This document shows, piece by piece, positions 1,207 to 33,881 of a stretch of DNA of 64,000 nucleotides. This DNA is from Larus michahellis. Lineage: Eukaryota; Chordata; Aves; Charadriiformes; Laridae. The notes below the pieces were generated by a model. That model saw only the letters and a list, made by a program, of their open reading frames with translations. It ran no database searches and had not been told where the DNA came from. Position 1 is the first letter of the stretch. Every line of letters begins with the position of its first letter. The stretch spans positions 2,914,001 to 2,978,000 of the forward strand of contig NC_133914.1 of NCBI RefSeq assembly GCF_964199755.1, written 5' to 3'. A program made the position numbers and the translations under genes.

Positions 1207-4200
1207 TAGTTAGCCAACTTCTTATTCAACTCTGCAAAAATGCTTCGCAGAGCTTATACCTGAGAATTAAGACTTAAGAAACTGTGCAGCTCCACTTACC
1301 AGTCCTCACACAAGACTAGTACAAGAGGCACAGTTATATCAGAACTCCTGTACACTCGGCTCTGTGGAAATGTTACATCAAGCCCCACATGCACACACAC
1401 GGCTCCAGGGAAAAGGTCTACATTTAGAAGTTGCACGCCTTTTTTAAATGTGCAGGCAGACCAAACGGGACCTTACTTTCAGTGCTCTCTGTATGAAATG
1501 GGCTGGTTCATCCACCTGAAGAGCTAATGCAAGGTGTGAAGATGGTGCACTGGAGGGCACAAGCTGTATCAGCGTTCTCAGACTATGGACCAGGGAAGTG
1601 GAAGAAGGCTCTTCAGCAATAAACAGAACTTAACAGCTACTTTTAATGGTTCTTATGTGTTCTGAAGGGAAACTTTAACTCACAAGTTTCCGAATCGATT
1701 CTGCTGACATGTCCTGGATAGGTTCCCGCATGTAACACAGCGTATGAATGGGAGACCCAAAGCAACTTGGCAAGTAGTTGCCTGTTACAGATAGAAAATA
1801 ATCCTTCCCCTTGTTAAGATGCAAGACCAAGATATCTTCAAGTTTTTCCTCTCCAGAGTTTAAGTGTGTGGCTGTTGATTTATTAACAAACACCTCCAAC
1901 TCAATTGTGATCTTAGCGCCTGCCAAAAGATGATAAAAAAAACCCATACACAGTTAAAAAAAGGTATTAAACCAATGTGCCTGCCAATAGGCAGAGAACT
2001 AAGCCAGGCGGTGACAATTCAGGTCATTAACATGAGACGAACAATGAGGAGCTCACCTGATAGCAGAAAGCCCTTACTGGGATTAGCAATCAACCACTCC
2101 TTGCAGTAGGTGTTCTCATCTGGTTTGCTGATGAATTCGAAATGGCAGGGCACTGGTCCATTGCAGATTGTAAACTTCTCCACCTGCAGCTGCATGTATT
2201 TAACATCCTCAAAATGGAACTAGAAACAAACGTCAGTGAACATCATCAGCCCGTTCCACCTTGCCAAGCACCAGCAGCAATTCCTGTCCTGTGGTTTAAT
2301 CATTAAGCAGCGTGATACCCAGATTAACCCTCTTGCTCCCACACTCCGTCTCTTCCAGGATTACATAGGATTACATTGACTTACTCTGTCGTTTGCATCA
2401 GTGGGCCCTTTAAAACAAATGCTCCCCTCAAATAACCTCAATGAAACTCGAGAGCAAGATAGCTGTAACCTCGAATGTCTCATTTGCTTATCTTTTTTAG
2501 TCCCCAACACACAAAGCAAATGCCGGTTTTGTGACCTTCTCCAAACCCTTCAGATTTTACACTTTATGTTTCAAACAGGTCAGAGCAAGGGCCACCAGCT
2601 ACCCCTTTTACTCTCTCTCTCCCCACCTCAGGGCGTAAAAACGCGCCCTGCCCTTCAGCATGGTACTAGGAACGGAATTTACCTGTATCTAGACAGAAAC
2701 AACTATTTCTAGGACTTGCAAACAGAGAACAGCTGGAAGTCAAAATATTCTAGTTCTTTGAAAGCAGACCCCAGGGTCTAGAATCCATCTAATGTGCTTC
2801 TACCACTGGAATACACTCTGGGGTCCAGGGTGGCTCCGTGTCTCCAGCAAGTCACGGCACGTGGACAAACCCTACCTCTCTCTGGGAGAGCGTCACCGAG
2901 GGAATGTTGGCGTTCTCCAGCTTATCCAGGGAGCGGACTATTTCCTCAAAAGCTTTTCGATAGAGGTCCTCATTCACCACCTTCACCTGAAAAGGACACA
3001 CACCACACACTGCACCAGCTGGCATTTACTGGGCCTCTGCAGGGGAGCTGTAACACAGCTGGGAACACATAAAGTGGTTTGATTTCAGCAGCACACTGGC
3101 GTATACAACACACGTAATGAACAGAGCCACTTGGAGCACGATCTCCTCGGGATCCAACAGTAAAGAACCTTGCCATAACTAGCAAGAGGCACCTAGTCAG
3201 TTCTACATCAGCTTTTTTTTTTTACCTAAAAAAAAAAAAAGTTTGACAACACACTACTGTGTTGTCAGCAATGTAGCATTCCTACACTGAAAGTTTCTGT
3301 ATGATTTTCATATTAGGATAATAATTTTCATATTAGGAAAATAAGAAAAAAGGCAAAAGAACATTTCTGAAAAAAGACCTACAGATATTCATGCGTTATT
3401 CTGAATATCACTTAACATAACCCCAGCTTACTGCAAACAACAATCCTATCTCGGTATCTTATCTAGCCCACCTTTTAAGCCATTGTTCTCTGTGGATGCC
3501 ATAAAAGCTGGAGGAGAGGGAAATCAGCAGGAGAACCTCCCTCCTCCCGCTCTGCCCACACAGAGGACGAGGTCAGCAGAGTTATTTCCTTCGGCGCTGA
3601 CGTACTTACCCCAATATCAAACACAGAGCTAACTGGCTTATGATCACTGATCTTCAAAGCCATATGGCTGCGATAGCTCAGCTGAGCAACGTTCTGCCCT
3701 TTCCAGAGTATCCGATCACACCACGCGGGAACACGACACTTCTCACTGCAGCAGAGGGGAAACATGACAGTTTCCAGGCACAGTTCGGTGGAGTAACAAC
3801 GCACGGCAGAATCCTGCCCTCCCGGGGACTCCTTTCCTGACACGGCCCGCACCTACTTCTCTATTGAAGTTCTGTTTTCCACAGGCTCTTTGAGTAGTTA
3901 TAAGAAGTTTGATTCCCTACTACTAGGGATCTCTATATCGTGCTTTACTTCCTGCTTCTTCAAAGATGCAATTATTTGTTTTGTTCTTTTGATACAATTA
4001 ACATACAAAGCAATACTCAGAGATACTTTTGACTATAAGAACCCTGAAAAATAAGAACTCAAGCTCTACATTTAAAGTCCACATTTTAATTTTTTTATTT
4101 TTTTTCCCCACTGACTGCTGCAGATTCCATTCCTGCACTTGAAGCCAACGTTCCCAGCTTAGTAACAACAGGTCAGCCGCTCTGTGCGGTGCATTACAGG

Positions 4201-7200
4201 AACCATGCCTCTCGCGGTCTTTTGGAGAACGCACAGACAGCACAAACGCACCATTTCCAACCCTACCTGATCTGACCTGAGGAGATATAGCAGGTATCAG
4301 CAAATAAAAGATCCTAAAATTCTGCTTGGGGGAAAAAAAAAAAAAAAACAAACCCACAAACCAAACAAAAAGAATGAAACCAACTGCAATAATCTCAGAA
4401 CTGTTACTATTTATAGCCATTAGGTCTGTAATTCTTTTTAGCTTTGTTTTTACTTCCTTCAGTGATAACATTAGCCATTGGTAGCATCACGTATGAAGCA
4501 ATCACCGTACCTTGTGTCCCAGTCGTCACAGCCAGCATCGTATTTGTACGTTGGCTGGAAAGAAATTTCTCCCTCTGTAAAGCCTTCAAAGACGGCATTT
4601 GCATTCATTTGCCTCTTCAGCTATGAAAGAAAAAAAAAAAAGACAAATTTAATTTTAAATAAGCTCAAGCACAACCCCCATGTGAGCTCAAAGGGAGACG
4701 TTCAGCATTGGGAAGGCTAAGGAGTGCAGTTTCTAAGGAGCATCCCCAGCACCACCTGCAGGCAGGCGAGACATCAGTACCTGGTCATACTGGCAAAGCT
4801 CTAGAAATGCCTTCTCATCTACAAGCTGCTTCACTTTTGCCACATCCAGTTCCTCCAGCCGATAGTTGAGGTCACCCAGCCATAAGACGACACTGAAAGA
4901 GAAGGTACACCAGAAGTCTACACAGGGGCCTAAAGACGTCCAAGACACAAGCTGTTGAGCTGGAGGCCCAGCTCCGCAGCAGAGCCTTAAACCATCTCAT
5001 GCAAGCGTGAGCTCTCCTAATCTCACCATCATCAGGCGGATGCTGTGTCTGCTTCTCCAACAGAGAGAGCAAGTAAGAGTGAAAACTGGGAGAGAAGCTA
5101 CATTTTCTGCCTCTGCTGTTTTTAATTCCTGTTCTGCATGTCTGTCACTACCTCTTAATAAATTATGCTTTTAATATTCCACACTGACTAAATCCCAAAA
5201 GCCATTGGGAGGGATCGATGCATATTATTGCCCCATTCCCCCTTCATGCGTGAAAATAAAACAAGGCCTGGAACAGCATAAGAAGGCAAGTGACTCGTCA
5301 GAGCCGTCTAGGTGGCCACTCTCAAAACCAGGGTTACAGGAAAGCATTTCTGGCCCTTCCAGGCTGACGATTAGATCACTGGGCAGCCCTTCTCACATCC
5401 CTGCTGAGAGAACCTCACACCCCAGGCGTCCACAAGGTTCCTCCTTGCCACATGCAGTGATTCACAGATGGAAAGCATACTCATGTTCGCCAATAGTGAG
5501 AGGGGGCAAATTTGGATCCGACTGGCAGAACTGCATCCGAGAGCAGATGTCTTTGAAGTCCTGGTTCCTCCGCTCATATTCCTCCATGTGAGCTGCAAGG
5601 TGAGAATTCACAACGCACACGCTAGTGTTATGGAATTTAAACCTTATGGCAACACCACCTTTGTTACCCTGAAAGATAAAGACAAAGACTTTGGTCAGAA
5701 GCTTCTACACAACAGATGAATCCACAAATGAGTTACTAGCAGTGGACGAGCCAGGAGACATTGAGGCAGACCATTTAATTCCAGAGGAAGGAAAAGGCCG
5801 AAAACACCAATTAGCAATAACTACTTCATGAATTCAAGTGAGTAACTCATGTGAGGGCTGCACACAGCAACAGAACACAGCAAGCAAGCACGTGGAACTC
5901 AGTTTATAATTCAGGAATTAGCTAGTACAAAAGGAGATTAAAATCAGTGAGAGAGCTGGTCAGTTACTTCAGCAAGTCCTGAAACCTGTTTAGCAACAAA
6001 CTGGATCTTTCAACACAACCCATAAAAAAAAATTGTAAATAGAAGAGGAAACATGTGGTCAAAAATACCCGTGACAAGTTATAGCTGCAATGTTCACAGA
6101 AACTACATTCAAAGGGCACAGACTTCATTCCAAGGTGTGGAATGGCAAGGGGCCAGGAAATCCTTCTCAGGAAAACTAATCTGGATAGACACGTTTCTTC
6201 TACTTATGCTTCCTTGTGTTACTTGCTTTGGGGAGCATCAAAATCGCATGAAATCAAGGCCCCACACAGCCCAGCACGTGCAATCGGGGAAAAAAAAGCC
6301 TTCAGAGAAGGTTCTCCCTGAGGTCTTTGGGCCTTTGCAAGCACATGGCAATTCCCTCTAGCAACGCCCCGAGCTGGCGCAGGGACAGGACTGTGTGCTT
6401 CTGGAGGCAGCTGCGTCCCTCAGCTGGAGGAATAACCACCACATCTAAGGAGAGGGGCTCTCCGGGGCTCTTCTAAATCTCACCCCTTCTCGTGCACGGT
6501 TGCCATTCTTACCATCCTCCCCATGATTCCAGTTCCCACAGTCTCAATTTCCACCTCAGAGACGTTCAAAGCAAGGTCTGCTTTCACATACAACAGAAGC
6601 ATGATTCCCACGAGCCGCACAAGTTTCACCTGAAAGACAGATCCTGTTCCATTAAATCCTAGAACAGGAGAGGTTTGACGAGAGAAGGCACGTCGCCCCC
6701 AAGTCCAGAACACAGGTCACCAAAATACAGATGAAGAAAGAGAGAGTTCCAGGCTCATCCAACGGACCGTCTGGGCTCACGGGCACCCCAGCAGCACAGC
6801 ACAGGGAGGAGCCTGGGACCAACACCCCAGAAAACGAAGCTGAAGCCCAAAGCAAAACCTACAGCACAGGCAGAGCCCATGGAAGGAGCTTCCTTTCAAC
6901 AACAGTGACAAGAGACAAAGCAGACCTAAGAAGCAGGAGCCAAAACATGAGCAGTATTCCTACCAAGATACCTTCACAACTCGTTCCACCACACACTGTG
7001 AAGAGAGACATGGGAGAAGCTAAGATACTTGCTGCTCTCTTCCCCCAAGAGAGCAGATGCATGCTTTACGCGCGGATGCCCAGCGCTGGTCTCCTGCCCT
7101 GCCCCTGCCTCGGCACCCTGCACAGCTACACCACCTACTTCACCTCGGCGCTGCGGCTGAGCGACAGCCTGCAGCCAGCGAGCCTCCGGAGGACACAGCG

Positions 7201-10200
7201 ATTGGGAAGAAGAAGAAAAAGCAAAGGGAAAAGAGGCCCAAGTGGAAAATGATTCCACGCTCAAACCTCCCCAAAAGCCACATTTACCTTTGCATATTTG
7301 GCATCTGGGTGAAGACTATCAGTTACAGCTTTAAACCATTCTTCTTCCTTCGGTGTGTCATTGAAAAAGAAGGCTTCTTTACTCAGATCAAGCTCCTGGA
7401 AACTGTGTTAGAGGAAGGAACCCGTGGATGCATGCACTTGTTTATAACCCTCCATCCCTTTCCTCTGGGAAAGAACTAAATCAATTTATACTCGCTAAAT
7501 TTATAACTGAAAACTCAAATTCAGTTATGCTGATTTTAGAGGTATGTTAAGTGTAAAGCTAAATTACTGTTAGTATTAAATTGAATGGCATTAAAGATTT
7601 TGTAACACTGCAGTGCCGGAGAGTCCAAACACGACCAGCACCGCAGCCCTTTCCGGCCACGCGAACACCCGCCCTGGAGCTGTGCAATGGAGGAAAGCGC
7701 TGCCAACACTCCTCAGCTGCGGCGTCCCGCACAACGCCTCCACGTGCACGTTCCCAACAAGCAACCCACGGTCCGGGTCTGGCAGGACGGGCCAGGAGGA
7801 GACACTCACCCCACGCAGTAAACGTCTGGAGGCTCAGCATCACATCTCAGCCATGGCTGGAGGCTTTCTCGGGGCGGCTGACCGTTCACATTGTACGTCC
7901 CAACAAAAAACCTGCAAAGAAATTAACTAAATCCCAGAGCTGATGGAAATACCAATATTATTAACCCGTGCGCTTAATACTACATATAACTATTTAGGAG
8001 TAACATGTTTCCAGGAGGGAATTGGGAAAATGTGACAAAGTTTAAATCCCTAAAATGATTTGACCACAGTAGCATCTTTACAGACGTGTTTTACAGAAGG
8101 ATACATATTTTTACGTGCAGTATTTAAAAAAAAAAAAAAAAAAGACTACCAGAGCTGCGCAGTAGCAGTTTGAAATCATAAATTCATAGAATGACAGGCA
8201 TAAAAGGATTTCAACCACAGCAAATGTTGGTCCTAATGACATATTTCACCCAAGCTCTTACTAGCTTCTTGGAACCACTACAAGGACAAGTAGCGAACAG
8301 CAGCAGTGAGGGAGAAAGCCAGAGGTGCGCAGAACAGAAGCATTTCCAGACACAGTCTGAAACAAGCACAGGAAAAAGTCATTTCAAAAAGGCCATTTCC
8401 TCAACCAAAACCACAAGGCAAGCCTTGACCGAGACACGAATGAAATTCTTCTCTGCGAATGCCTAAACAAGGAAAACAAGCTGTTCTGGAAAGCACAGAT
8501 CATACTTTTCTAGAGAATTTCCTATTTGCAGGGATACTAGATGAAGTAACGAACATGAGTTCCTTTGACAGCTTGTGCTGACTAACTTACTCTCCAACAA
8601 AAATAAGTTCTTCTCAGGAACGATCGCTACCTGAAGCTCTGGATGTGCGTGTAGGAATCCTCCATTTGGACAAGCTGAGACTTAACAATAATATCTCTTA
8701 GTCCAAACTGCGGTTCTGGTAAGACTGAAACCTTCTCCGAAGCCATTTCGCCGGAGGACTGTACCATTTCAGTTGTCGCTTCAGGTTTGAGTTTGTTTTG
8801 CCTGCAAATGAAAGCAAAACCGCGTGATGAAACCCAGATACACACACCTCCTGAGCAGCTTATTCCTGCCACTGAGGGCTTGATTCGCATTTATCTGCCT
8901 GTTTCACTAAAGACAGATAATCAACGTTTGGGTTAAGCAAACAAGACTGAAACGAGCATCTCTCAGAACTAGATAAAACCAGTTTAACGAACTGAAGTAA
9001 CAAACGGTTTTCACTAACCTGGTGCAGCCTGTTAATTCCGAGCAGGCCTTACTCACGCCCCGACGCTGGTACAAAACCTGCGCACCTTTCCCGCTTACGG
9101 GAGCACGGAGATGCAAATCTCATCCCCCGCTGCCTCTGCTCAGCCCTTCTGACCTCAGCAGAAGAATGAAAAACTCTGTTTGTTTTAAAAGCCCTCTGGT
9201 GGCAAAGTCCCAGCTCTGCCCAGAAGGGAGGCAGCGCAGGGCGGGTGGAGGCAGAGGTGGTTTCATTTATTATCTTGAGACTCTGCAAACTCATTCTGCA
9301 ACGCTAATAACGCCGCAGCTTGGCAGTTCCCACAAGCAAGTGGATGGTACAAATTTAAGGTCAGCAACCTGCAGACCAGTGCCAAGGACAGCACACAGAC
9401 AGACTTTGAAGGGTATGCAGCAGGGTCCGCAAAGTCCTGGGAACTGGAAAACGAAACCGTAACATTTGAAGGCATGGTGGCCCTAAGCCAAAGCTCTCTG
9501 AAATCAAAATAAACATCACTAGTGGGTCCAGTCCCACTCAACAGCAAAAATATGCCCAAATAGGGGACTAGGAGGACTGCCTCCGAGAGACTGGGCTGAA
9601 GTTTCCACTCAAGTTTTGACAGCACGCTTATGCTGAACTTTTTTCTCTCCTAATCAGAATCTACAGATTTCTCTTCTCAAAAAGTTGCCAACTTCTGTTC
9701 TCGACCCCACCGCCTCTGGGGACTGCAACCGACACGGTCGTCGGCAGATGGAAGCGGATAACGCAGCCGCACGACTGCTGGAGCACCGGGGTGTGCACAG
9801 ACCTCACACGCCTGCACAGAGACACCAACTTCCCCACTCGCTTTCCAGCTGAAAACCAGGAAGCCCAGGCAGAAAGCTCTCTGCACTTTCATTTTCTTCT
9901 TCTAGACATCAAAGCATCAACAGTTTGCCCACCGCAGCTCATTCCATCCATGCACAGTCACCCAGAAGTACCCAGAACTTCGGTGCTATATATATTTACT
10001 GTCGCTACCCAGAGATCCTCTGTGGAGGGGAGGCACAGCTAAACCGGCAAAGAGACGTTGCCACCACTTTTCCTCCTCACTAGACCTTCCACAAAGAGCT
10101 GACGTGCACAACTCGCGCTTCACCAAAGCTACACAAGAAGCGAGAGAGACGCCATACCTGGGAGCACTTTTATCGGTGCTGTCATGGCTCCGGTTCTGGC

Positions 10201-16446: not shown

Positions 16447-16900
16447 GCCCCGCGGCGGATGGCGCTCGCCAGGCGGGTCCGCGCTGCCCGGCACCGGGAC
16501 AGGCACCGGGACCCGGCGGCTCCCCCGGCTGCCGCGACACGTCGCGCCGTTACCGCTCCCGCTGCCGCTCGGCGGGGGCCCCCCCGGCCCGGCCCCGCCG
16601 CTCCGTTATTCCCCGCGGCGCTCCGGGGCCCCGCGCTGCCGCTGGCCGGGAAGGCGCCGGACGCTGGATGACGCGGCGGGGCCGGACCGGGGGGAGACGC
16701 CGCTGCCGCCCCCGGAAATAACGGCGCCGTCCCGGGAACAGCAGGAGGGATCGCGGCCGGCGCCGCCCCCCGCCCCGGCCAGCGGGGTCGCAACCGAGGG
16801 GGTCCCGCACGGCGGGTGCGACCGGCGGGGGGGGACAGGAACCGAGTGGGAGGGGGCAGGAACCGGGCGGGAGCAGGCTGTAGCCCTCTCCCGACGGGAA
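16447..16900 (-). promoter_or_regulatory. INPP5B: INPP5B promoter CpG island
   Basis: Very CpG-rich, TATA-less sequence directly upstream of the INPP5B start codon. The ATG has G at -3 and G at +4. An ETS-type CCGGAA core is visible near 16711. The transcription start cannot be fixed from sequence alone. Confidence 0.6.
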
Positions 16901-18570
16901 AGGGTTAGGAGGAGTGGGGAAGGTTCGTTTCCCGTGAAATCGGGAGATTCGCCTTTTTTCAGTAGGACGTTGAGTTCATTTTTTGTTGCGTATCCAGAAG
17001 CCTCGGCTGGCACAAGCCGACCCTCCGGCTGCCGGTTCGTTATGCAAATGAATTGCTGCCGAGTGTGTAAAGCAGGTGCTAGAAAATGTCACCAGACATC
17101 GTCTTTTGCATACGAGAGATGGGAGAGTTTGGCCTAAGTCAGCTCTTTCCACAGATGTGGGAGAAACAGCCGAGATCTAAAGACTGGAAAAAAACTGAGC
17201 AGTTAACGGAAGGGCTCTGCTGCCGGCCTTCCCGCGGCTCCCGCGGCCGTGCCGAATGGCGAGAGGCTGCCGAGAGGAAACGAAAGGAGAACAGTCCGGA
17301 ATATCTGCTATAAACGCTAAACCTCTGTTCTTACGAGAAACGTGGTGCTGGATGGTATTTTTGAGATAGAAAACCCTTGGGTTTGATCCTGTTTTCACTC
17401 GCTACGGAGATGCTGACATTGTGGCCTGAAACAAATTCAGAGCACGCCAAGCCCCGCGCTGCGGTTTCGGTGCAGCAGAAGAGCAGGCTGGTTGCGGCTG
17501 CCCTGCGACGTGGAAGGGGCCGGCTACCGCTTCAGTCAGGCTTTTTCCACCCCGTCCCACATCCGCGGCATGAGAACCTCTCAGCCAGCAGCACCTCCCA
17601 GGGCAGAGCCTGCCACCGGCGCAGCCGGGCCGGGCTCTCCCTCCCCTTCCCGGAGCGTCCAGCCTCGCTCAGCATTCCCCACCGCTGACCAAGGGACTCG
17701 CAGACGGGTTTTTGTGTTTTTATCATCTTTTCTTTAAAGAGACAGCAATGACAGAGGACAGCAGAGTGTGTGTTTGCACAACGGGCAGCGCGTTGACACC
17801 CACGCCCGAAAAGCCACGCACCAGCTCCATGTGATGCAATAACAGGCCGGCGGTGGTTCACGTTAAAGGCGAATGCTCACGACTCTGCTCTGCCTTTAGC
17901 AGCAGAGAATCACAGATGCAATACAGGATCATCTAAAACACAAGATGCTTGCAGAGTAATCCCATTTTCCTGCCTAAGAATCGGAGAGTTACTAATTTTA
18001 CCCACCCATACAAGAGATATTTCCCATCGCAGAGCAGTTTTAAACTAACAAGTAAGAGGGGGCCCAGAAAGCAGATTATTAACTAGAGCAGACCCTGTGC
18101 CTTCAGCCAAGGCTGAATTTTCCGGTTTTTAAGCAGGCTTAACACCCTCTTGTTCCTTCTCCTGAGGTCACTGGTCCCAGCAGCACAGCGGCAGGCAGGC
18201 AGCACAGTGCTCAGAAACCATAATTAGCTCGCAAGTCTCACAGGCCTACAGGTTTTTTGGCAGGGCCGGGGAAGAATACATCTTTGTCGCTTCCTTAGTG
18301 CGTAGATTAAGTGCTTTTCCTCTGGATACACTGGGGGAGTCTTAATTACAAGTATTTAAATTTCACTGAAACAGGAGCCAGGACTCACCAGTCCCAGGAA
18401 GGTGCAGGATTGAGAGTGGATTTAGCCACATGGTTTGGTGTCCCTGGCACACGACATTGGCTTAGGTACAAAGCTCATGAGTCACGAGCGAGGCACGGGG
18501 GCACCAGAAATTCATCCTCTCCAGCTGTAACCCAGAAGAGACTTGCACTGGGATTAGGAAGCAGGGGGAA
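16900..18570. other. Intergenic, INPP5B 5' flank to Ly6-like gene 3' flank
   Basis: No gene recognised. A perfect POU octamer ATGCAAAT lies at about 17042. A canonical polyadenylation signal for the Ly6-like gene was not found here, so its 3' UTR end stays open. Confidence 0.5.
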
Positions 18571-18573
18571 AGA

Positions 18574-18699
18574 GGGGAGCATCCCAGGGAAGGGGAGCAT
18601 CCCAGGGAAGGGGAGCATCCCAGGGAAGGGGAGCATCCCAGGGAAGGGGAGCATCCCAGGGAAGGGGAGCATCCCAGGGAAGGGGAGCATCCCGCGGGG
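18574..18699. repeat. 18-bp minisatellite, seven copies
   Basis: Unit GGGGAGCATCCCAGGGAA, six near-identical copies from 18574 with a seventh degenerate copy ending in CCGCGGGG. It lies about 500 bp past the stop codon of the Ly6-like gene, in its 3' UTR or flank. Open frames across it (SIPGKG or MLPFPG repeats) are artefacts of the 18-bp period. Confidence 0.95.
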
Positions 18700-19191: not shown

Positions 19192-19668
19192 TTACCCCCG
19201 GAGGGAAGCTGAGACCCTGCGATTCAGGAGCAGGACCACCCCGCTCACCATGAGCTTCAACAGCTGGGACAGAGTCACCTGCCCAGCGCTATTGACGTGA
19301 ACTTTGCCATCCAGTTTCAGACAGCTCGCTTTCAGGGTAGCCGGGCAGCACTCCTGGTAACAGGCAGCCTTCATCCCGCCGGCACAGACTGGTTTGGCAG
19401 CCTTGCAGGCTCTGCTGCACCCCGCCATGTAATTCAAGCCCGTCTTCTTCATCTAGAAGAAAGAGAGAGAGAGACGTTAGCCTGGAGGTCCTGCCAAGCC
19501 TTTGGTATTGACATTACAGGGAGGCACCCAGGCTGCTGGGCACATCCCAGCTCACGGGCCGTCCCGCCATACCTCACAGAAGTCATGCCCAACGATGCAT
19601 CTAGCAACAGTCTTCTTGCCTTTGAAACATCCATCCCCGTGACAGGAGAACGCGGCACACACTTTCCC
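19192..19668 (-). other. LU-like domain 2 exons plus C-terminal anchor
   Basis: Exons 19668-19573 and 19452-19192 encode KVCAAFSCHGDGCF through CYQECCPATLKASC, again 12 cysteines in the same order as domain 1. The intron falls at the same place in both domains (after Cys5-Glu, phase 0), so the two domains arose by duplication of an exon pair. No N-glycosylation sequons, and Lys-rich, unlike domain 1. A hydrophobic C-terminus follows. Confidence 0.85.
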
Positions 19669-22450
19669 CTACAAGAGAGGGCCAGAGGAGACACTGGATA
19701 TTCATCGGTCCGGAGAGCGGGACTCCCAGGACAAGAACGGAACTTCAGGCAGCCCTTCTTTCCTGGGGGCTCCTTTCTAAATCACTCTGGTCTTGGTATT
19801 TGGCCAGCGCTGTCTCGGGCGTTGCAGACACAGAGAGATAAAAGACCGAGAGTGCCCCGTCTGAAACTGCAGGAAACTTCAGTGAAACAGCAGCGTTGCA
19901 AACCTGTTTCAAACCCCCTTTTCCTTCCTCTTAACAGGGCCCTGCAAAGGCAAAGCACCTTCCCCTCCACGCAGGCTCGGGAGAAAGGCTGCAGTGCCCC
20001 GTCCGTCCCGCACCCTCCCTGCCAGGACCGGCGTAAGTGCTGGGCTTGGAAAAATCCTTTTTGACAGAGCTTATTATGGACTCTTTCCTTTCAAAGCTTG
20101 TTAAGGATTTTTTCCCCTCCCAGAGGCTTTTGACCCTGTAACGCAGGGGCAGGAGGGACCCTCCCTGTGCCCCGCTCTGGTGGGAGCGTGGCCGCCCCTG
20201 CAGAGCCCGTGGCCGCTGCCCGGACGGTACCTACGTTTCGAGGGGGCGGTCGGGGAGTGGTGGTGGTGGTCGCAGGCGGCGCAGTGGTGGGTGGCAGGTC
20301 ACCTGCGGACACAGGAGGAGCCCCGTGAGGCTGCGCCCAGCACACAGCCCTCCGCAGCCGCGCACGGCACAGGTTCACCATCACGGCTCACGCTTCCCCT
20401 CGCCCCAGCTCTGAAGGGCAGCAAACCCCAGGCGGGGGAGATGTGGCGACGCATCCACGGCCAGTCCTCTGAGACGGGGTTGTGCCCACCCACCTCCCTC
20501 CTGTGCGGCAGCGTTAACCTTGGAGCCCCGGACATCCCCCCCGGGGACCCCGTGGGCAGGTACCGTAGGAGCTGGCGTTGAGCTGCAGGCAGAGGCGGGA
20601 GTCGCAGCAGTCCAGGGCACACTGCTGCCTGCTCACGCTGCCGTTGGTCCTGCACATCTCTGCGCCGCAGGCGCTGCTGCACCTGGCTGTGTAGTTCGTG
20701 CTGGAGAAACGATAAAGCTGCAACAGCAGAGCCAAAGGAAAAAAATGCGAGGAGTGGGAAGAGAGGCCATTGCGAAGGTGCAAAAATAACCCACAGACCG
20801 CAACAGGGAGAAGGGAAACAGGAGATTGACACAAACAAGAGGGTACTGTGGATTCCTGATATAAAGAAAGGGAAAACAGGCTTTCCCTATCACAGCCCCC
20901 CCACGCCTCCGTCTCAGCGAGCTCCGTACCTCACAGTGGGTCTCGTTATGGCAGGTCACCGTTTCGTTGGCGTGGGCTTCGTCCTGGTAACACCTCTCCC
21001 CAGAGCACTGAAAGCTCTGGCAGGTGAGCTGCAGGGGGAACACACCAGGGCGTCAGCGTGCAGCGAAGCCTCCTCACACGGCGCCCCCGCGCTGTCCCCG
21101 GCCACGGCCCTGGAGGGGCTGCCTCTGCACAGCCACCCCCTGCCCGAGCTGCCCCCTCCTTCCTCGGGAGATGCTCTCATGGGATGCCCGGCTCCCACAA
21201 GGGACCAGTCGGGTTAGAGACCCCGTCCCTGGGGCTGTAACAGCCTGGCCGGCGGCTTTACTTTTCTTACCGGTGTTTCTTCTGTAGCATTCACAGAGGA
21301 GTTGGCGGCCACCGAGGCATTGCAGGCCACCGAGGCGTTGGGGGCTGTGGCGTAGTGGGCCACTGAGGCACTGGGGGCAGCAGTCGCGCCGTGGTGGGCC
21401 ACTGAGGCGTTGGCGGCTGTGGCGTGCTGGGCCACCGAGGTGCTGGGGGCAGCAGTCACGCCGTGGTGGGCCACCGAGGTGCTGGGGGCAGCAGTCACGC
21501 CGTGGTGGGCCACCGAGGCGCTGGGGGCCGCGGCATGCTCTGGAAGACACAAAGTTCCTCCTTGGTGAAGGAAACACCAACCTCGTGCTCCGCGAGCCCT
21601 GCATCCCCTCTTGAGCCTCTGCAGGGTGCAAAGGCATCTGCAGGAAGCGTCAGTGACATCGTGTTTGGGATGTGGATGGCAGTAGGTGACAGGGTGGCCC
21701 AAACAAAGTGCATTTTCAGCCATCAACTGGGCAGCCCGACGAGCAGGTCAGACAACAGGCTCCTGCAGCTTCTCCCTCCCCCTTCCAGCCTCACTGCATG
21801 TGAGGAACAGGCTTTTCTAGGCTCTAAACCCTGAAAAAAGGTTCCTCAGTGCAGCTCCATCCTACAGAATACAGCCTGGAGGGGACAGGGACAAAGTCCC
21901 CGTGGCACCACACTGCCTTTGCCCTGCTCCCCACAGCGGCCCCAGGTCTCCTGTGGGGCAGAGAGCTCACCTGCTGTGGCAAGAGGGTCCTGGGCGCAGA
22001 GGTGCAGAGCCAAGATGCAGAGCAGCAGGCCTGGAATGGAGCGGGGACAACTGAGACCACCGCGTCTGCCACCCGCTTTCCCCCCAGCCCAAAGAGCCTC
22101 CCCAGCAGCACGGGGAAACAAACGCCAAACCCAGGCCCCACTGGCGACCCTGGAGCGGGCGGTGGCCAGGTCCCCTCGGGGAACTCATGGGGAGCCCCAC
22201 AAACACACCTGAGGTCAGGGACCCGTGCTGGCCACAGGGGGCCAGCCCTGCTGCAGAAAGACCCCTCCAGTTGCCCAGATCCCCGGGTGACTAGTGGCCA
22301 CCCCTCGTCCCAGGGAGCCTTTGGCACAGCCTTTGGCAGCCAGGACAGGGATGGACGCCTGGGGCACGCTGGGACAGACGTCACTCTCCATGCTGCAGCA
22401 GAGCCCCCGTTACCTTGAACGGGGGACACGAGCCATCGGCGACCTGCCAT
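19192..22450 (-). CDS. Mucin-like protein with two 12-cysteine Ly6/uPAR-like domains, 347 aa, unnamed
   Basis: Eight coding exons, in order: 22450-22414, 22030-21971, 21539-21271, 21028-20930, 20717-20564, 20302-20235, 19668-19573, 19452-19192. All are GT/AG and phase-consistent; the total is 1044 nt ending in TAA. Protein: signal peptide with hydrophobic core GLLLCILALHLCA (about residues 13-25), mucin-like repeats (33-122), LU-like domain 1 (123-206), Thr/Pro linker (207-229), LU-like domain 2 (230-310), then a C-terminal hydrophobic stretch (about 320-337) after small residues NSAG, with tail NRRVSASLRG. That end could be a GPI signal or a short-tailed membrane anchor; the two arginines make GPI uncertain. 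Several N-glycosylation sequons are present. The gene sits between SF3A3 and INPP5B, where I know no mammalian gene. Function unknown; the family includes uPAR, CD177 and LYPD-type surface receptors. The ATG has A at -3 and G at +4. Confidence 0.88.
20235..20302 (-). other. Thr/Pro-rich linker exon between the two LU-like domains
   Basis: 68-nt exon encoding DLPPTTAPPATTTTTPRPPP; a hinge likely to carry O-linked glycans. Acceptor GTCCGCAG, donor GTAGGT. Confidence 0.85.
20564..21028 (-). other. LU-like domain 1 exons (12 Cys)
   Basis: Exons 21028-20930 and 20717-20564 encode LTCQSFQCSGERCY through LDCCDSRLCLQLNAS. Cysteine spacing: C-x4-C-x4-C-x12-C-x5-C-x13-C-x3-C-x4-C-x10-C-x3-CC-x4-C. Canonical Ly6/uPAR domains have 8-10 cysteines and end CC-x4-CN; here two extra cysteines sit before the CC pair and Leu replaces the usual final Asn. 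N-glycosylation motifs NET, NYT, NGS and NAS are present. Confidence 0.85.
21271..21539 (-). repeat. Coding tandem repeats: mucin-like exon
   Basis: A single 269-nt exon encodes imperfect repeats of about 10-14 residues around SVAHHGVTAAPST, SVAQHATAAN and SVAHYATAPN, ending in shorter ASVACN and NSS/NAT units. It is rich in Ala, Ser, Thr, Val and His, with five Asn-X-Ser/Thr sites in its last half. It resembles a glycosylated stalk placed before the folded domains. The exon is phase 1 to phase 0, so changes in copy number by whole units keep the frame. Confidence 0.88.
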
Positions 22451-22478
22451 CTTCGTCCACCAGCAACTTCAGTGGGAC
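21971..22478 (-). other. Signal-peptide exons of the Ly6-like gene
   Basis: Exon 22478-22414 has a strong acceptor (CTCTTCCCACCAG) followed by 28 nt of 5' UTR, the ATG and MAGRRWLVSPVQ. Exon 22030-21971 supplies GLLLCILALHLCAQDPLATA. Together they make a typical signal peptide with cleavage likely after LCA. The acceptor before the ATG implies at least one further noncoding exon upstream. Confidence 0.85.
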
Positions 22479-25381: not shown

Positions 25382-28300
25382 CTACAGCAGCCCTTGACGT
25401 TTCAAGTCTTCATAGGTTTTTTTATTCACCACATTCCCACTGGAATCCTCATATTCCTCCTAGAATGGAATGAACAGTTTAGAGGCACCTGGACACAGCC
25501 TGACTCAGGTTGTACTACCGCATTTGAATTTTAGCTCCAGCAGCACCTACTGAAGAGGACCAGCCTGCCCAGAACCTCTCCACGTGAAGGTGTGCAGAGG
25601 GTCCGCCAGCAGGCTCCACGAGAAGAGCTCAGGCAGAGCCACAGTAATTACAAGCTGTACTACAGGCTCTATTTCCACAGTCGCTCTGCATACTGCTGAA
25701 AAACGGTTTGAGATAGAAGTTTAAGAAAGGGTACTAGTATAAGTGAACACATTGCTCACAGCAGTTCCTTTTTCTTCTCACAAGGATGACATTGATACTG
25801 TAATTAAAAGATTCTTAGACGAAGGGCTGAGTCTGTCCTACCAGAATGACCCTCCCATACAGCACAAGAAGTGCTTGTCATACATCACCACTAACAGGAG
25901 CTGTGCAACCAGCAGCGGAGGTTCCTGCTCATCCCTCCAGCGTGCAGGGCACTCTCTTAGAAATTCTTTTGACAGGACCAGGCAGTTCGTGCACCGTAAA
26001 CGGGGGTTCCCTGTACACAGGACTAGAGACATCCAAATGTCTCCGCAACATCTCACCTCTGTATCGGGCTGCCATCTCTCTGAAGCCTTCTGCTGTTTCA
26101 GCTTTGCCCACACTGTAAATACAAAGTCACACAGGATCTGCTGCCATTTCCCTTGAGATACTAGTTTTTAATCTAGCAAAATACAGACATGAGCTTTTTT
26201 TTCTCTTCTTTCTTTCTTTTAAAACACTGTCACTTCAGCAGTCCAGGAATGTATCTAATACCCATTACAAACACATCATTCCCCCGTATGATTTACTGAA
26301 AGGCATGAGAACTAAAGCAAACAAGGCTTTAAAGTGATCATTCAGGATAAAACACAAGAGACAAAGGTCCAGAAACACTACTGCAGAGATACAGCTCCAA
26401 AGGCAATAATAGCTTGTTTGGGAAATCAAGGCTTTACCTATTTGTTTTCTTCTAGGCAAGAATTAATTTGCCTCCAGGAACCATAACCTGTATCTGTCTA
26501 CTGAAGTGGTGCAGATTCAAGAAACACCCTCTGTGTGAGGCAGCGTCCTCAAAACATCAGCACAGATAAGCCACATTCAATTATCACCGCTGTTAAGTCC
26601 TAAGGACTGTAGGCTTTCAAAATTGGCCCGTAGGCTCTACCATTTCGGAAGGTTTTTCTGGCTTCCCCACGAAGATGCTGGCAAACATCAATTAAGAGCT
26701 ACACAGGATGATACGGCCACGCTCTGCCTAACGAAATGGTGACCCATTGCACTTTGCTGAGATTTCACACACAAACCACCACTGACAAAACAGCTGGCAA
26801 CAAATGAACACTTCCCTGGCATCCCAGCAAGCACCTACTCCTGCGGCTATCCAACAAAGGAAAAAAGCCACTCTCCTTTTCAGAGCTGGGAGGGATGGTC
26901 CAAGGAAGGATCATCCCACAGGCACCATGTTTTTTACCCTCTTTCCTACAACTAGTCTCTGGTCATTGGGTAAGGCAAATTTTCGGCAAGAGCTAAAATG
27001 AGCATTCTTATGGCATGCGTTCCCAGTTCTGCCATCAGGACTTACATGAGACTGCATCCTCAATCTGTGTGACGTTGGCAAAATGCGCCGTGTTGGGAAT
27101 GCCCAGGCATCTCATCCCGTGAGCGTGTCGCCACTCCTGGGGAGAAGAGGCAAGAGGTCAGTGTCTGAGAGGGAATGCCACTTCATCCGCAATGCCAAAG
27201 ACTACAAAAGATACGTTAACATCTGGACAGGGCGAAACAAATGCTATCAACATACAAATCTACCGGTCCTAAAAACCTCTAGAAAAAGATTTTTTTTCTG
27301 TATTTTAGACAGTAACGATACACTGGCAGTCAACAGGCACTCTGCACCACTCAGATGTGGATACTGGAATTAGTGTTCAAACAAGAAGGGACTGTACAAA
27401 AATCTGCAGAAGAGATCTTAGCATGCCCTACGTAATTTATAGTTCCAATCGCATGGCCCTGCAGCACCAGCCCAAGCCCACGTTTTAGAAGTGGAAGAAG
27501 CACCACTCAGGCACTCCAGTGATTTACTAGTCACTTATTATAAAGACTATCGGAACATAGCACTGATGCTTTTGTAGCAAAAAAATACTTACTGCAAAGT
27601 GACGCTGAAAAGCTTTGGGCCCTCGGTAGGTGTAGTTCCCACAAATCTCACAATTGTAGTTGATGTTTAAACCATGTAATTTATACAACCAGTATGGGAT
27701 CGGCTGGCAAGTGAAGAAAACAACGATTAGGCCAAATGGCAAGGCAGGTTCAAACAGAAGAGTAGCGTGGAGTCAGTGACACCTCCCTCTTTTCCAGACC
27801 TGACAATCTCATTACCTTGCCATCCCAACCAAGAGGCAGATTTTTAGGATTATAAATGATTTCATTTTCTTCATCTTCACTCTCACTCTCACTGATCTGC
27901 TCTTCCTCCTCCTCCTCCCTCTCTTCCCCTGTCCGTGCTTGCTTACGCTGCACGTTCTCGTGAGTGAGGTGCCTCTGTTCCTAGAGCGTGAGGAAAGAGA
28001 AGGAATTGTCCACACAATGCGACAGCAACAAAATAAGGACAAACTCTGGCAGCGTGAAACGCTTCCTCAGTGTACAGAAGGACGGGAATGGAAGACCAGT
28101 ATGAAACAGAGAACTCATTTTATGTAGCCCAACTTAAGCTTTTAGTATAATATTTTCCTACCCTCAAAGAATGAAAAACTTGTAGTACAAGTAGCACTTC
28201 CAAGATGACGAGTTAACAGCAACAGCCACCCTGCTAAAAGCAATAACCTCAAGCTAAAGCAAGGACTTAAGGCAAGCATCGAGGCAGACCAAGTAAAGGT

Positions 28301-31300
28301 CGGCAATCCCCTGTGACTTCGGCATAACTAATGGAAATATAAATGTAATCCATCCTATTCTACTTATTGACAGAAAAAGCTAACTGCCAACATGCACTTT
28401 AAAACGTTACAACTCTGGACACGAAAGTTAACTCTTCTGAGCATGCCGTCTATGAAAGCACTGGGTAAAGTTGTGGATAACCTTCCAGTCACTATTTGAC
28501 AGCTCTGAAATAAAAAGCTCAAAGACAAAATAAAATCCTTACCCCAAGAACTTCTACATACTCATAAATCTGAGCTTCCAGGAATGCAAGATCTTTATTT
28601 CTTTCAGTGTCTCTGGAAATAGATAAAGGAACTTTATGAAGTCCATTCCAGAACTGCAAACGTCACACGTACACTGAACTTCTAAAGACACATTTGACTT
28701 GAATACAGCAAGAAAACAGAAACAAGTACCAAGCTGCTCGCGTAAACTAAACTGCACACAAACCATTCAGCTCTGGTATCTTCCATTTGGTTCAGGATTA
28801 TTTGGTCCAACATGACCAGCTTCTAAGACTCCAAGAATCTCTCTGTCACAACTATACAGGACTGATGTCTATAGAATACTTCTCGTCCAAGTGAAGAGAA
28901 CACCACCAACCTGAGAAGGCCCTTTAGGAACTCACCTTTTGCTTCCTTTTGTCTTTGGATTCTTAGCAAACAAGGAAGGATCAAGCGCTTCTAGGGATTT
29001 GCCTTTAGTGCTAAAAAGTCTCTGAGCACGCTCTTCCAGAGTCCTGTGGAGATGCAGGGCGTAGACAAGGCCAAACTATAGTTTTACATTTCCCGAAAAC
29101 TATTTGAATTCACGCAACAAAATTCTAAATTTAGCTTTTAAGAGATTATGAGATTTCCTATTATCTTTGTCTTCGTTCCTTAAGCCAAATTCTTCTATAC
29201 AAGAGGCTTCAGCACAGGACACTTCTCAAAACAGCAGATTGCAGTATCCCCTGGTTGGTTCTAAATGTTTTGTATTTCAAACATCATTCAAGTAATGCTT
29301 GTACCACAGAGAGGACAAAACCAGTATCCCATAAGGGAATGAAAGAAGGAAGACCTTAACAACTGAAAAGGAACTATAAAAAGACTGCACCTTACCCGCC
29401 ACATTTTAGTCCCAAGGCCAGTAAAGCCGATTTTAATCTGTCCAGTCCCAGGGAGGCCAATTCCTGTTCAATTAAAGTAAGTCACAGTGAGAGAGAGGCT
29501 ATTAAACAAATACAATATGGATGTATGTCCATTAAAAAAAGAAAAAAAAACCCCAAACAACGAACAGCATTCAATAAAGGACTGTCGAGGGTGCACCACT
29601 CCTCGCTGAAAAATGAGGAACGTGACAAATCTAACCAGATCCTTCAAGTTACATCCCCCTAATGGGTGAAATTAAGTCATCAGCATAATCAAAGTTTTAT
29701 TCAGACAGTACAGAGCCAGAGGTGAAAGCACAGCAAGTAAAATTATGAGAAGAATCAAAATAAGTACGCTTCCACCTGCCCAAAATTTAGCACTAAGTGC
29801 AGAGCACTGGAAACATACCTCCCAAGAGGAAAACGCTGAGAGATCCAGGTGGGCTCCAGCATGAGTGAGTGCGCTGCTGGTCTCTTTCTGCCAAGAAAAA
29901 CCACAAGATCTGCGTGACATCCTACAACACTTCATGCAATATAATAGTCTGACCTCAAGAAAAGCGGTTCCTTTCACAGAGAAAAATTCTCTCACTAAAC
30001 TGAGCAACAGAAAAGAGACAAAATTCACTTCAAACCTGTTACATTGGTTTTCAAATTCAAATTAATATTAAGTTGCACCTTTGTGATACACAGTTACACA
30101 CCTTGCTATTGGACTTAACCTCAGAGATGGCTTTACACAAATGATTCAGAGAAAACCTATCGCAACTACAGAAGCATTCACAGGGGCTTAACGACTGCTC
30201 ACCGGCCAGCCAGGGAACGTTCCATTTTCCCACTTCTTCTCAAACTCAGTCTGAATTTTCCCAAAAAGTTCATTCTGGTCCAGTAACGGTTTCACTCGAT
30301 CTGTGTAATCCTGTAGGTACTCCAGAAGCATTTCCAGGTACCTGGCAGAGTAATCAGGAGAACAGGTAATTCAGTATCAACCTTTAACATATTTATTTAA
30401 CCACATCTTTGGAAAGCAATTACCCTCTAGTACTCCAAAGGGAAGTCATCACGATTATGAGTTTTCAACACGCAATTTCTAGATGCGGCTGTCATAAGGA
30501 TAAAGTAAGGTCCTTCCACAAGAGCACATTTTTGCTGCACTGCATGTTATCCCAGGGCTCAGACACACGGCTGACTTACTATAGCTCCGTGACCCAATTT
30601 ACATGAGTTGAGTTTGACTGTTAATTATATTCTTAGCAGCTGTACACTTAAGAAGCAAGTCCTTCTCCTCAAGTGTCATAAAAGCAGCAGGTAGGCAAAA
30701 AGGCTCACCTCTTATATTCAGCATTTTTCCTCTCCTTGGGAATATCGAAGAGTTGGTCAAATGTTGATAAGTAAGTGATATAATCCAATTTCTAAGAACG
30801 AAAAAGTTTGAGTCAGTCTTTAGACACACGGAGCCAACTTAACATCCAGTTTCCAGTTACCAGACCAGAAGAAAAGCACTAGCTCATGCCATTATTCTGG
30901 ACTGCAGAGGCCTCTGTGAGCTACCACATTGCCTTAGACACCTGGCAGTACTTGGCAGGAGAAAACAGAGGCTTTTTACAAAGCCAACCTTACACTAACA
31001 ATAGAGAGATATCAACTGAAGAGAACAGAAGAGTCACAAAACAGCATTCAGAATCCAGATGCTGTCAAGCTGTACGTGCAACAAAGTGACTTAGAAATAG
31101 CTATTTGGAAATAAACTTATCTATGTAAGAAAAAAAACAAACAACAAATAACCATGAACGAACCAAAGAAAAAAACCCTCAGCTTTAAGCACTGAAGTTG
31201 CCCAAACACATGCAGCCACTTACCTCTGATGATTTTAGATTAATGTACTTGAGATAACAATCATGCAGATCTAAGTATCGTCCATACCCTTCCTCATCCG

Positions 31301-33881
31301 TGAACTCCACCAGATCTATAGGAAAGATCATGAAGAGCTTTAGTATGAGCTTAATCTTCCCTACTTATTGTGCATATGCTTTAGAACTTGAAAAGGAGTA
31401 ACCGTGGACTAATTTATGCTTAAGATGTTTATAATGCAAGTGGTAAACATTCTCCATCCCAGAGGAGGCCACAAAGATGCTGGGAGGGCTGGAGCCCCTC
31501 TGCTGGGAGGACAGGCTGAGAGAGTTGGGGGGGGTTCAGCCTGGAGAAGAGAAGGCTCCGGGGAGACCTTCCAGCCCCTTCCAGTCCCTAAAGGGGCTCC
31601 AGGAAAGCTGGAAACTCTGGATCAGGGAGGGGAGCCATGGGACGAGGGGGAACGGCTTTAAAATGGAAGAGGGGAGATTTAGATTAGGAAGAAATTCTTG
31701 ACCATAAGGGTGGTGAGCCCCTGGCCCAGGCTGCCCAGAGAAGCTGTGGCTGCCCCATCCCTGGAGGGGTTCAAGGCCAGGTTGGACAGGGCCTGGAGCA
31801 ACCTGGGCTGGTGGGAGGTGTCCCTGCCCAGGGCAGGGGGGGTTGGAACTGGATAATCTTTTAAGGTCCCTTCCAACCCAAACCATTCTGTGATTCTATG
31901 AAGTGGGATACCCGTTGATCAGACACCTGACCGCTGCTCTGTGTAAGCACACAAGAACACTCCTCAAGAGGGGCACCACTACTGTGGAATATTCCCAGGG
32001 GCTGCAGTTCAGAAAAATTTAAATGGTAAAAGAAATTTTCAAGTCATTTAGTAAAAGGGAGGTGGAACTCTGAAATGTGCAAAACAGATCAAACATCTCA
32101 TTAAATAATGACTCTCATGCAAGCACCATATTGTCACTTAAACTGGCCTCAGAAAAACCACAAACTTACTTTGAGCTTCTTCACTCGGGTTGTCTCTGGC
32201 CTTCAACAGTTCCTCAAACTCCACTGACATCGGAACACAGATCTTCAAGAACAGGCAGAGAAGTTAGAGGAAAATTTATTACTTCAGCTGATGTCCCAGA
32301 TTTATAGTTTGCAATCTATTGTGATTTTATATTAATTAAACTGCTAACTGAAAAGGCATCCAAAGCGTTTCTTCACCATTATTTTTGCACAAAGGAAAAA
32401 GTCTGACTTTAGCCAGCACAAGATGGGCAAGACCAAACACCAGCTCAGCAGCAGAATGTTCCTGAGCTACCACACAGCACGCAGAGAATACAGTTAGAGA
32501 ACGCATCCTGCATCTTCTGATGTCCACACTGCTCTCACAGGAGCGTACACACTGCCTCTGAAGCACTGCCTAACCTTGAACATTTTCTTTCTTCAAGTGA
32601 CTTTTTAATGTACTTAATACTTGTATATTAAGGCAATTAAACTGGAAAAAAGAAAGTCTGTTTATTGTAGGGATTAGGTCCAACAGACCAGAAATCACCT
32701 ATTCTTACGAAGTAGATAACTACTTACCTCATTCGGGTGCTTCCGGTGAAATTCCTTGATTTGTTTCAGTCTGTTGTAGAATTCTGCAAATTCATTTGGC
32801 CCTGAAATGGCACTGAGTTCTTCTTTCCGTAAGCTATGAGTTCATGAAAAAGGACAGATTACAAGTGGAAAGGAAAACACATTGACACCGCTACAACCTT
32901 TTTCCAAGTCTCGTGCTGCATTTTGATGTCACGAAGCTCCAGCAAGGCTGACTGCAGACCTCGGAACATTACATCAGACCCCACAGTCCGCCGGGCTTAC
33001 GCTTTGAGGGTCCGGATCACGTCTCCTACTGAATGTGCTGCAGTGTCACCTTATAAACCTTCAAGGCAACTCAGAGCCTCCCCCCATGACTTAAACCAAG
33101 AAAATAACAAAATGGGTATATCCAGCACATACACACCCAATGTGCAACCTGGGTCCTGCTCTGGCAGGTTGAGTCTCCAACGCCTGACCCCTGGTCTTAC
33201 ATACCAGCATCTCTCCTCATGGGTTTACAAACGACTTACAGGAGCCCCCGGTTCTTCCCATGCCCACAGGAGCAGCGGGCACGCCGGGGCACACACGGAT
33301 GGGGTGTCTGCGTTCCGAGGCATATACCAGACGGGTCTCTGTCCACTTACCCGTCCTTGTCGTCGTACAAGTCTCTCAGGTTGCCGCTCACTTCCATGTA
33401 CCTCTGCAAAACAAGAGCAGGCCCCGGCGCCGTAGCGCCCGTCACCGCGGGGAGGACGGGGCTCGCTCCCTCCCGGGCGCCCCGGCAGCGGCCTAGCCCG
33501 TCCCGCGCGGCCCCGGGGCCGCCGTCGGGGCCCACCTCGGGCCCACCGCCCGCCCCCGCGCACTCACGTCCTGCATGGCCCGCGTCCGGTGGTCCGAGTT
33601 GATCTGGTCGCGGAGCTGCGGGGAGAGGAGCGGGGAGAGGAGCGGGGAGAGGAGCGGGGAGAGGAGCGGGGAGAGGAGCGGGGAGAGGAGCGGGGAGAGG
33701 AGCGGGGAGAGGAGCGGGGTGGAGGTGAGCGCGGGCCCGGCCGCGGCCGCCTTCCCCCCTCCCCCCCCCGCGGCCCCGCACGCACCGTGGACTTCTTGGT
33801 GAGCATCTCCTTCACCATCACGTCCATAAGCCGCTCCCGCTCCTCATGGTACCGCCGCTGCTGCTCCAGGATGGTCTCCAT
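25382..33881 (-). CDS. SF3A3: SF3A3, splicing factor 3A subunit 3 (17 exons, complete)
   Basis: Subunit of the SF3A complex that joins U2 snRNP and helps it bind the branch site; nuclear. Coding exons in order: 33881-33786, 33615-33568, 33403-33351, 32833-32728, 32242-32170, 31315-31224, 30791-30709, 30341-30203, 29887-29819, 29463-29396, 29043-28936, 28612-28543, 27980-27816, 27703-27593, 27136-27046, 26112-26057, 25459-25382. These give 1506 nt, 501 residues, the human length as I recall it, with no frame break. Visible features: N-terminal [20 protein letters not shown], a SAP-like helical segment around 250-280, an acidic Glu/Ser run at about 355-375, and a C-terminal matrin-type C2H2 zinc finger (C408, C411, H425, H431). 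It ends LKRQGLL. Near-total identity to the mammalian protein fits its core spliceosomal role. Confidence 0.99.
27046..27703 (-). other. SF3A3: SF3A3 matrin-type zinc-finger exons
   Basis: Exons 27703-27593 and 27136-27046 encode [11 protein letters not shown], then C-E-I-C and, 13 residues on, His, then [16 protein letters not shown]. The intron separates the two zinc-binding histidines (H425 and H431). This finger is the protein's most conserved part and contacts the U2 snRNP side. Confidence 0.92.
31455..31901 (+). mobile_element. CR1 LINE 3' end in SF3A3 intron
   Basis: Plus-strand 3' UTR part of CR1, ending with TTCCAACCCAAACCATTCTG and the terminal TGATTCTATGA typical of CR1. Antisense to SF3A3, within the intron between exons 32242-32170 and 31315-31224. 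Confidence 0.96.
33619..33720. repeat. 12-bp minisatellite in SF3A3 intron 1
   Basis: Eight perfect copies of CGGGGAGAGGAG plus a partial ninth, directly next to the acceptor of exon 33615-33568. In the transcript sense this is a CTCCTCTCCCCG array. It fills about 60% of the 170-bp intron (33616-33785). Confidence 0.97.

Follow-up and report, generated by a model that had tools for sequence, protein, structure and literature searches.

The window analysed here is a 64,000-nucleotide stretch of the Larus michahellis genome (C23:2914001-2978000, on a contig, C23, of 9.0 Mb; the searched assembly comprises 1.4055 Gb in 616 contigs). According to tblastn it carries, all on the minus strand, the gene order FHL3-SF3A3-LU-like gene-INPP5B, and the third of these genes, whose product has two cysteine-rich domains resembling the Ly6/uPAR (LU) type, is the subject of this report. 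A preliminary description had placed a gene of eight exons and seven introns between SF3A3 and INPP5B, encoding in phase a protein of 347 residues. The position was confirmed, all exons and introns are present, all seven introns are GT-AG, and the joined frame is open for 347 codons from the ATG at 22450 to a TAA (coding span 22450-19192). The gene had been started at 22478; an exon is indeed found there (22478-22414), but translation runs from 22450, leaving 22478-22451 as 5' untranslated region. The start codon stands in the context AAG ATG G, with an in-frame TGA upstream of it. Because exon 1 opens at an acceptor, a further non-coding 5' exon upstream is likely. The parts of the gene are as follows.

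22451..22478, minus strand: 5' untranslated part of exon 1, behind the acceptor CACCAG, with an in-frame stop before the ATG
22414..22450, minus strand: coding part of exon 1, with the start codon and the first part of the predicted signal peptide; ends in phase 1
21971..22030, minus strand: exon 2, with the hydrophobic core of the predicted signal peptide (GLLLCILALHLCAQ) and the likely cleavage region; phase 1 to 1
21271..21539, minus strand: exon 3, a disordered Ala/Ser/Thr/His-rich stalk of tandem 12-13-residue repeats, about residues 33-122; phase 1 to 0
20930..21028, minus strand: exon 4, N-terminal half of cysteine-rich domain 1, with Cys1-Cys5; phase 0 to 0
20564..20717, minus strand: exon 5, C-terminal half of domain 1, with seven Cys including the Cys-Cys pair; phase 0 to 1
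20235..20302, minus strand: exon 6, a Pro/Thr-rich linker (DLPPTTAPPATTTTTPRPPPRN); phase 1 to 0, as exon 3
19573..19668, minus strand: exon 7, N-terminal half of cysteine-rich domain 2; phase 0 to 0
19192..19452, minus strand: exon 8, C-terminal half of domain 2, a hydrophobic stretch, a short basic tail and the stop TAA; starts in phase 0

Judged from the sequence, the strongest evidence for this gene is the homology of its two domains beyond the cysteines, together with their common phase-0 split. Domain 1 (residues about 121-204) aligns to domain 2 (about 230-310) with E = 9e-9 in a single comparison, and no cysteine-fixed shuffle of domain 1 out of 5000, and no full shuffle out of 5000, attained the alignment score of 97. 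The alignment of exon 4 with exon 7 was equalled by 0/5000 shuffles, and that of exon 5 with exon 8 by 1/5000. Both domains are interrupted by a phase-0 intron right behind the residues CE, and the disordered exons 3 and 6, each positioned ahead of a domain, both run from phase 1 to phase 0. The gene contains two sets of one disordered exon and two domain exons, each entered from a phase-1 intron; the first set ends at a phase-1 intron and the second at the stop codon. The shared split point and the matching phases of the disordered exons thus indicate the duplication of a three-exon unit. When the eight exons and seven introns were compared with each other by blastn (E up to 0.01), the sole pair found was a 31-base match between exons 5 and 8, which places the similarity in coding exons.

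The base composition and substitution pattern were also inspected. Over the whole coding sequence, the guanine-plus-cytosine (GC) fraction is 0.75 at codon position 3 and 0.578 at positions 1 and 2. In the four domain exons taken alone this bias is small (0.635, against 0.598 and 0.537), which counts against the gene model. Among the six stalk repeats, the ratio of nonsynonymous to synonymous proportional differences (pN/pS) is lowest in the coding frame, at 0.46, compared with 0.88 and 1.18 in the other frames; since the repeat pairs are not independent, this constitutes modest support. The two domains diverge strongly at synonymous and nonsynonymous sites alike (pS 0.72, pN 0.50), and this comparison is little informative. 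As far as its sequence tells, the LU-like gene is real, intact and protein-coding.

The N-terminus of the protein has two arginines and a hydrophobic core and is signal-like by eye and by hydropathy, in agreement with the signal peptide proposed earlier. The stalk, described previously as a mucin-type glycosylated segment, does consist of repeats and contains five of the ten N-glycosylation sequons of the whole protein, but its 90 residues include 29 Ala and only 22 Ser+Thr (24%), with 6 Pro; it is alanine-rich and may be termed mucin-like in a loose sense. The hydrophobic C-terminus of the preliminary description corresponds to a stretch of about 13 residues that is, however, interrupted by one Lys and followed by NRRVSASLRG. 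Being short, lysine-bearing and backed by a basic tail, it represents a weak anchor signal. Attachment through glycosylphosphatidylinositol (GPI) appears doubtful, and the stretch is also short for a membrane span.

Each domain contains 12 cysteines, within 74 residues (125-198) in domain 1 and within 73 residues (233-305) in domain 2, and both display the ten consensus LU cysteines in order, with the Cys-Cys pair, within 60-90 residues. The disulfides of LYPD6 are Cys3-31, 6-15, 24-50, 56-75, 76-81 and 61-72 (PMC7582953). The twelve cysteines of both domains follow the LYPD6 order, the extra pair of loop III being assigned by position only. The spacing is similar as well, with gaps between Cys7 and Cys10 of 4,10,3,0,4 in domain 1 and 4,10,2,0,4 in LYPD6. 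Summed over all gaps, domain 1 differs from LYPD6 by 19 (as good in 37/200000 gap permutations, and in 330 when the CC pair was kept in place) and domain 2 by 24 (510/200000, and 3898 with CC fixed), and the comparison with Lynx2 gave 537 and 514 of 200000 for the two domains (4269 and 3821 with CC fixed); these figures are optimistic because the comparator was chosen after the pattern was known.

Several results weigh against assigning the domains to the LU superfamily. A Pfam search (E up to 10, HMMER filters on) returned no match, LU included, for the whole protein or for domain 2, and a sub-threshold FHA match alone for domain 1 (E 0.19); no match of the protein to PF16975, the LYPD6-type family, was obtained in it. 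The plain query had no match among PDB sequences, and a profile of the two domains retrieved five rows with E 0.46-1.1, none of which is an LU protein. Against a home-made LU profile of nine domains, four human and five joined from Ly6-type exons of the same genome, domain 1 scored 4.3 bits (22/1000 cysteine-kept and 2/1000 full shuffles as high) and domain 2 scored 0.4 bits (79/1000 and 21/1000), whereas the controls reached 19.5 bits for the LYPD6 part, 13.0 for a LYPD1-like exon and 53.2 for a held-out Ly6-type pair, with 0/1000 shuffles of either kind as high for each. Alignment of the domain pair with four human LU domains by hhalign gave no signal over shuffles (56/150 with cysteine columns kept, 32/150 full). 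The asparagine right after the tenth cysteine, termed invariable in LU domains (PMC6600238), is replaced by leucine in both domains (CLQLN, CLKLD), and Cys1 and Cys2 are separated by a gap of 4, where each of the four human LU rows has 2. Both domains are split by a phase-0 intron one residue past Cys5, which departs from the LU pattern of an exon pair with phase-1 introns on its two flanks and a split at the tip of loop 2. A predicted fold of the contiguous window sequence, in which a 120-base intron was read through, had a mean predicted local distance difference test (pLDDT) value of 38.3 and is uninformative.

The intron position was compared with those of other LU-type genes of the genome. 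The first-half exons of Ly6-type domains have a GT nine residues and one base past Cys5 (+28), in phase 1, in 8/10 cases; the two exceptions are L010, with a donor-like site at +22, and L015, with no GT at +28. LYPD6-type genes, represented by six PF16975 rows that all lie on contig C11, have their splits, as judged from match boundaries, ahead of Cys5 and within loop III, and in 4/7 activin-receptor-type rows a single frame covers positions 1-78 of 79. By these comparisons, the intron position is not fixed across the LU superfamily. The earlier designation of two Ly6/uPAR domains thus holds for the presence of two homologous domains and for their LYPD6 cysteine order, but not for the profile match, the asparagine after Cys10 or the place and phase of the intron; the label appears plausible. 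PF00021 matched 17 places in the genome at E up to 1, none of them at the LU-like gene, and 14 of these fall in C2 167.89-168.02 Mb (L004-L009, L011-L013, L015-L019), a Ly6-type cluster with regular mid-domain introns. One first-half exon of this cluster, L015, has stop codons further along the match and may be decayed.

The neighbouring genes were located by tblastn with queries for SF3A3, the INPP5B catalytic domain and FHL3.

25385..33881, minus strand: SF3A3, upstream neighbour; 17 matching pieces with the human sequence, residues 1-501
3607..7913, minus strand: INPP5B-type phosphatase exons, downstream neighbour; seven pieces with the catalytic domain, 54-87% identity
40863..43841, minus strand: FHL3, the gene beyond SF3A3, with approximate ends

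The rows collinear with the queries have identities of 54-100%, and extra FHL3 rows at 25-44% are cross-matches between the repeated domains of FHL3 itself. The preliminary description also stated that no gene was known at this position in mammals, which for human is supported by two published lists: a 149.87-kb human deletion contains the five RefSeq genes FHL3, INPP5B, POU3F1, SF3A3 and UTP11, with no LU gene (PMC6081233), and the OMIM gene order MTF1, INPP5B, SF3A3, FHL3 has none either (PMC5053025). Since OMIM lists leave out unnamed genes, absence from human is supported rather than proven. The literature searched, mostly at the level of titles and abstracts, contained nothing on an LU-like gene between SF3A3 and INPP5B. 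The gene is probably already present in bird annotations as an unnamed predicted gene. No transfer RNA genes or above-threshold Rfam families were detected in the window.

Searches of the same genome, in which the best candidates only were scored, yielded no convincing second copy with either domain. Domain 2 plus the tail gave 3 rows, two at the gene's own locus and the third on C20, and domain 1 plus the linker gave 9 rows, three of them at the own locus; the seven other rows (C20; C23 8.01 Mb, C1, C41, two on C10, C9) looked on reading like chance frames. No relative of domain 2 was recognized among 8 pattern matches in viral contigs or among 30 in prokaryote genome contigs, where absence is expected.

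Additional features of the nearby sequence are tandem repeats and CpG-rich stretches. About 0.5 kb past the stop codon of the LU-like gene, an 18-base unit (AGGGGAGCATCCCAGGGA) is repeated perfectly 6.7 times at 18573-18693. In SF3A3, a 12-base unit repeated perfectly 8.5 times at 33618-33719 (GCGGGGAGAGGA on the plus strand, TCCTCTCCCCGC on the gene strand) takes up most of the first intron observed; as the repeat reaches about to the SF3A3 acceptor (near 33616 by match boundaries), this minisatellite seems to act as the pyrimidine tract. At 16035-16341 lies a G-rich minisatellite, with periods of 102 bases and less, next to a CpG-rich segment at 16501-17000, possibly the INPP5B promoter, and a second CpG-rich stretch is found at 13001-14000. 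Elsewhere in the genome, two stretches on C10 about 0.4 Mb apart (10736208-10736435 and 11154877-11155104; L027 and L028) share an identical translated stretch and are identical in the flanking bases displayed; they stem either from a recent duplication event or from repetition in the assembly.

We consider it probable that the LU-like gene encodes a divergent, duplicated extracellular binding protein of the LU type. The signal peptide would route the protein into the secretory pathway, where two homologous disulfide-rich modules in tandem would each form the five consensus bonds and one extra bond in loop III, as in LYPD6-type domains. Each module would sit behind a flexible, probably glycosylated spacer, and the weak C-terminal hydrophobic stretch may leave the protein either released or held at the membrane. 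The arrangement arose by tandem duplication of a unit that starts at a phase-1 intron and comprises one disordered exon and two domain exons. The spacers would keep the modules off the surface, and the presence of two modules may allow one partner to be bound bivalently or in a divided manner. The exon structure, the open frame, the internal duplication and the lack of a second copy in the genome search are results of the analysis, whereas the three-finger fold, the disulfide pairing, glycosylation, membrane attachment and the binding role are features that we infer. The loops and the concave sheet of LU domains usually bind proteins, and the three LU domains of uPAR jointly form its ligand cavity (PMC6600238). 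An immune or reproductive role, by analogy with the superfamily, would be a reasonable prior.

A somewhat unlikely alternative is that the gene is real but that its domain is a separate, undescribed disulfide-rich domain which acquired a LYPD6-like cysteine order by convergence. This would account for the lack of significant Pfam and PDB matches, for an LU profile score that is weak here while divergent LU controls score well, for the leucine behind Cys10 and the longer Cys1-Cys2 gap, and for a phase-0 intron one residue past Cys5 where most Ly6-type exons of the genome have their phase-1 GT further on. It fits less well with the occurrence of all twelve cysteines in LYPD6 order at a spacing nearer than most permutations, and the intron argument is softened by the own-genome LU genes, LYPD6-type and activin-receptor-type, which have no one common intron place. 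A rather unlikely reading is that of a disulfide-rich family of its own, with two copies in one gene and no descent from LU domains, forming a lineage-restricted surface protein of birds or sauropsids that arose by duplication of a 'stalk plus domain' exon unit. The motifs of other cysteine-rich families were compared by eye, and none of them (LDL-receptor class A, GDNF-receptor, somatomedin B, TIL, defensin/ovodefensin) appeared to accommodate all twelve cysteines. The chicken egg-white uPAR/Ly6 protein HEP21, encoded on chicken chromosome 16 (PMC7071030), was also considered.

The ends of the gene leave room for two other readings. Exon 8 contains an unused donor-like site, ATG|GTGAGC after 19249, at which the frame is in phase 0, and neither AATAAA nor ATTAAA occurs between 19192 and 15000 on the gene strand, which counts against the gene model as it stands; 12 polyadenylation hexamers were sought there, and four weaker ones were present in a single copy each, at 17734, 17724, 16980 and 15587. 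Together with the acceptor that opens exon 1, and with a hydrophobic stretch that is broken by a lysine and trailed by basic residues, these features would suit a gene in which exon 8 splices onward at this donor, a non-coding exon precedes 22478 and the real C-terminus differs. We regard this as improbable, since no convincing terminal hydrophobic (GPI) exon was found past exon 8 among filtered acceptors down to 16000, where the best candidate had a mean hydropathy of 1.25 over 12 residues. In the lack of both a strong polyadenylation signal and such an exon, the 3' end is undefined. The same undefined end could be expected of a decayed or never-expressed duplicate whose frame is open by chance, but this is very improbable for 347 codons without a stop or frame break, joined across seven GT-AG introns, with frame-specific constraint among the stalk repeats and, among the best candidates of the genome search, one copy found and hence no live parent gene seen. 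A divergent LU-type protein is the reading that we prefer.

If conserved, the gene would be one that is missing from the human lists seen and that lies between two housekeeping genes; as the order of these neighbours is kept, its loss or gain would be cleanly datable by synteny. It would also extend the LU-like proteins by a form with two modules spaced by stalks, and its unusual introns and lack of the asparagine would provide a test of whether the LU fold arose or was rebuilt more than once. Its likely presence in bird annotations limits the surprise.

A comparison with known systems places the protein closest in cysteine pattern to LYPD6, LYPD6B and LYPD1 (Lynx2), which have six disulfides and share with it the twelve cysteines in order, including the extra pair of loop III. 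By contrast, the gull protein has two domains instead of one and a repeat stalk, together with the Cys1-Cys2 gap of 4 and the missing asparagine after Cys10, and its intron places differ from those of the LYPD6-type genes of the same genome, as judged from match boundaries. The multi-domain proteins uPAR, C4.4A (LYPD3) and Haldisin (LYPD5) of human 19q13 resemble it in having several LU-like domains in a row and in being secreted or anchored. Their first LU domain is without the 7-8 bond (PMC6600238), whereas the cysteines assigned as Cys7 and Cys8 are present here in both domains (residues 172 and 192 in domain 1), and the locus and intron phases are other ones. Two consecutive LU domains with the 10-cysteine signature kept also occur in a zebrafish cluster on chromosome 21 (PMC6600238); this is a cluster of seven proteins, in contrast to the single gene described here, and the available part of that source mentions no disordered exons. 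The exon architecture, which is all that was compared in this case, recalls SP-10 (ACRV1) and GPIHBP1, in which an extra exon for a disordered segment precedes the LU exon pair (PMC6600238) much as exons 3 and 6 precede the two domain exon pairs. Those proteins have a single LU domain, and the segment of GPIHBP1 is acidic, whereas in the LU-like gene segment and domain are duplicated together and the segment is rich in Ala/Ser/Thr or in Pro/Thr.

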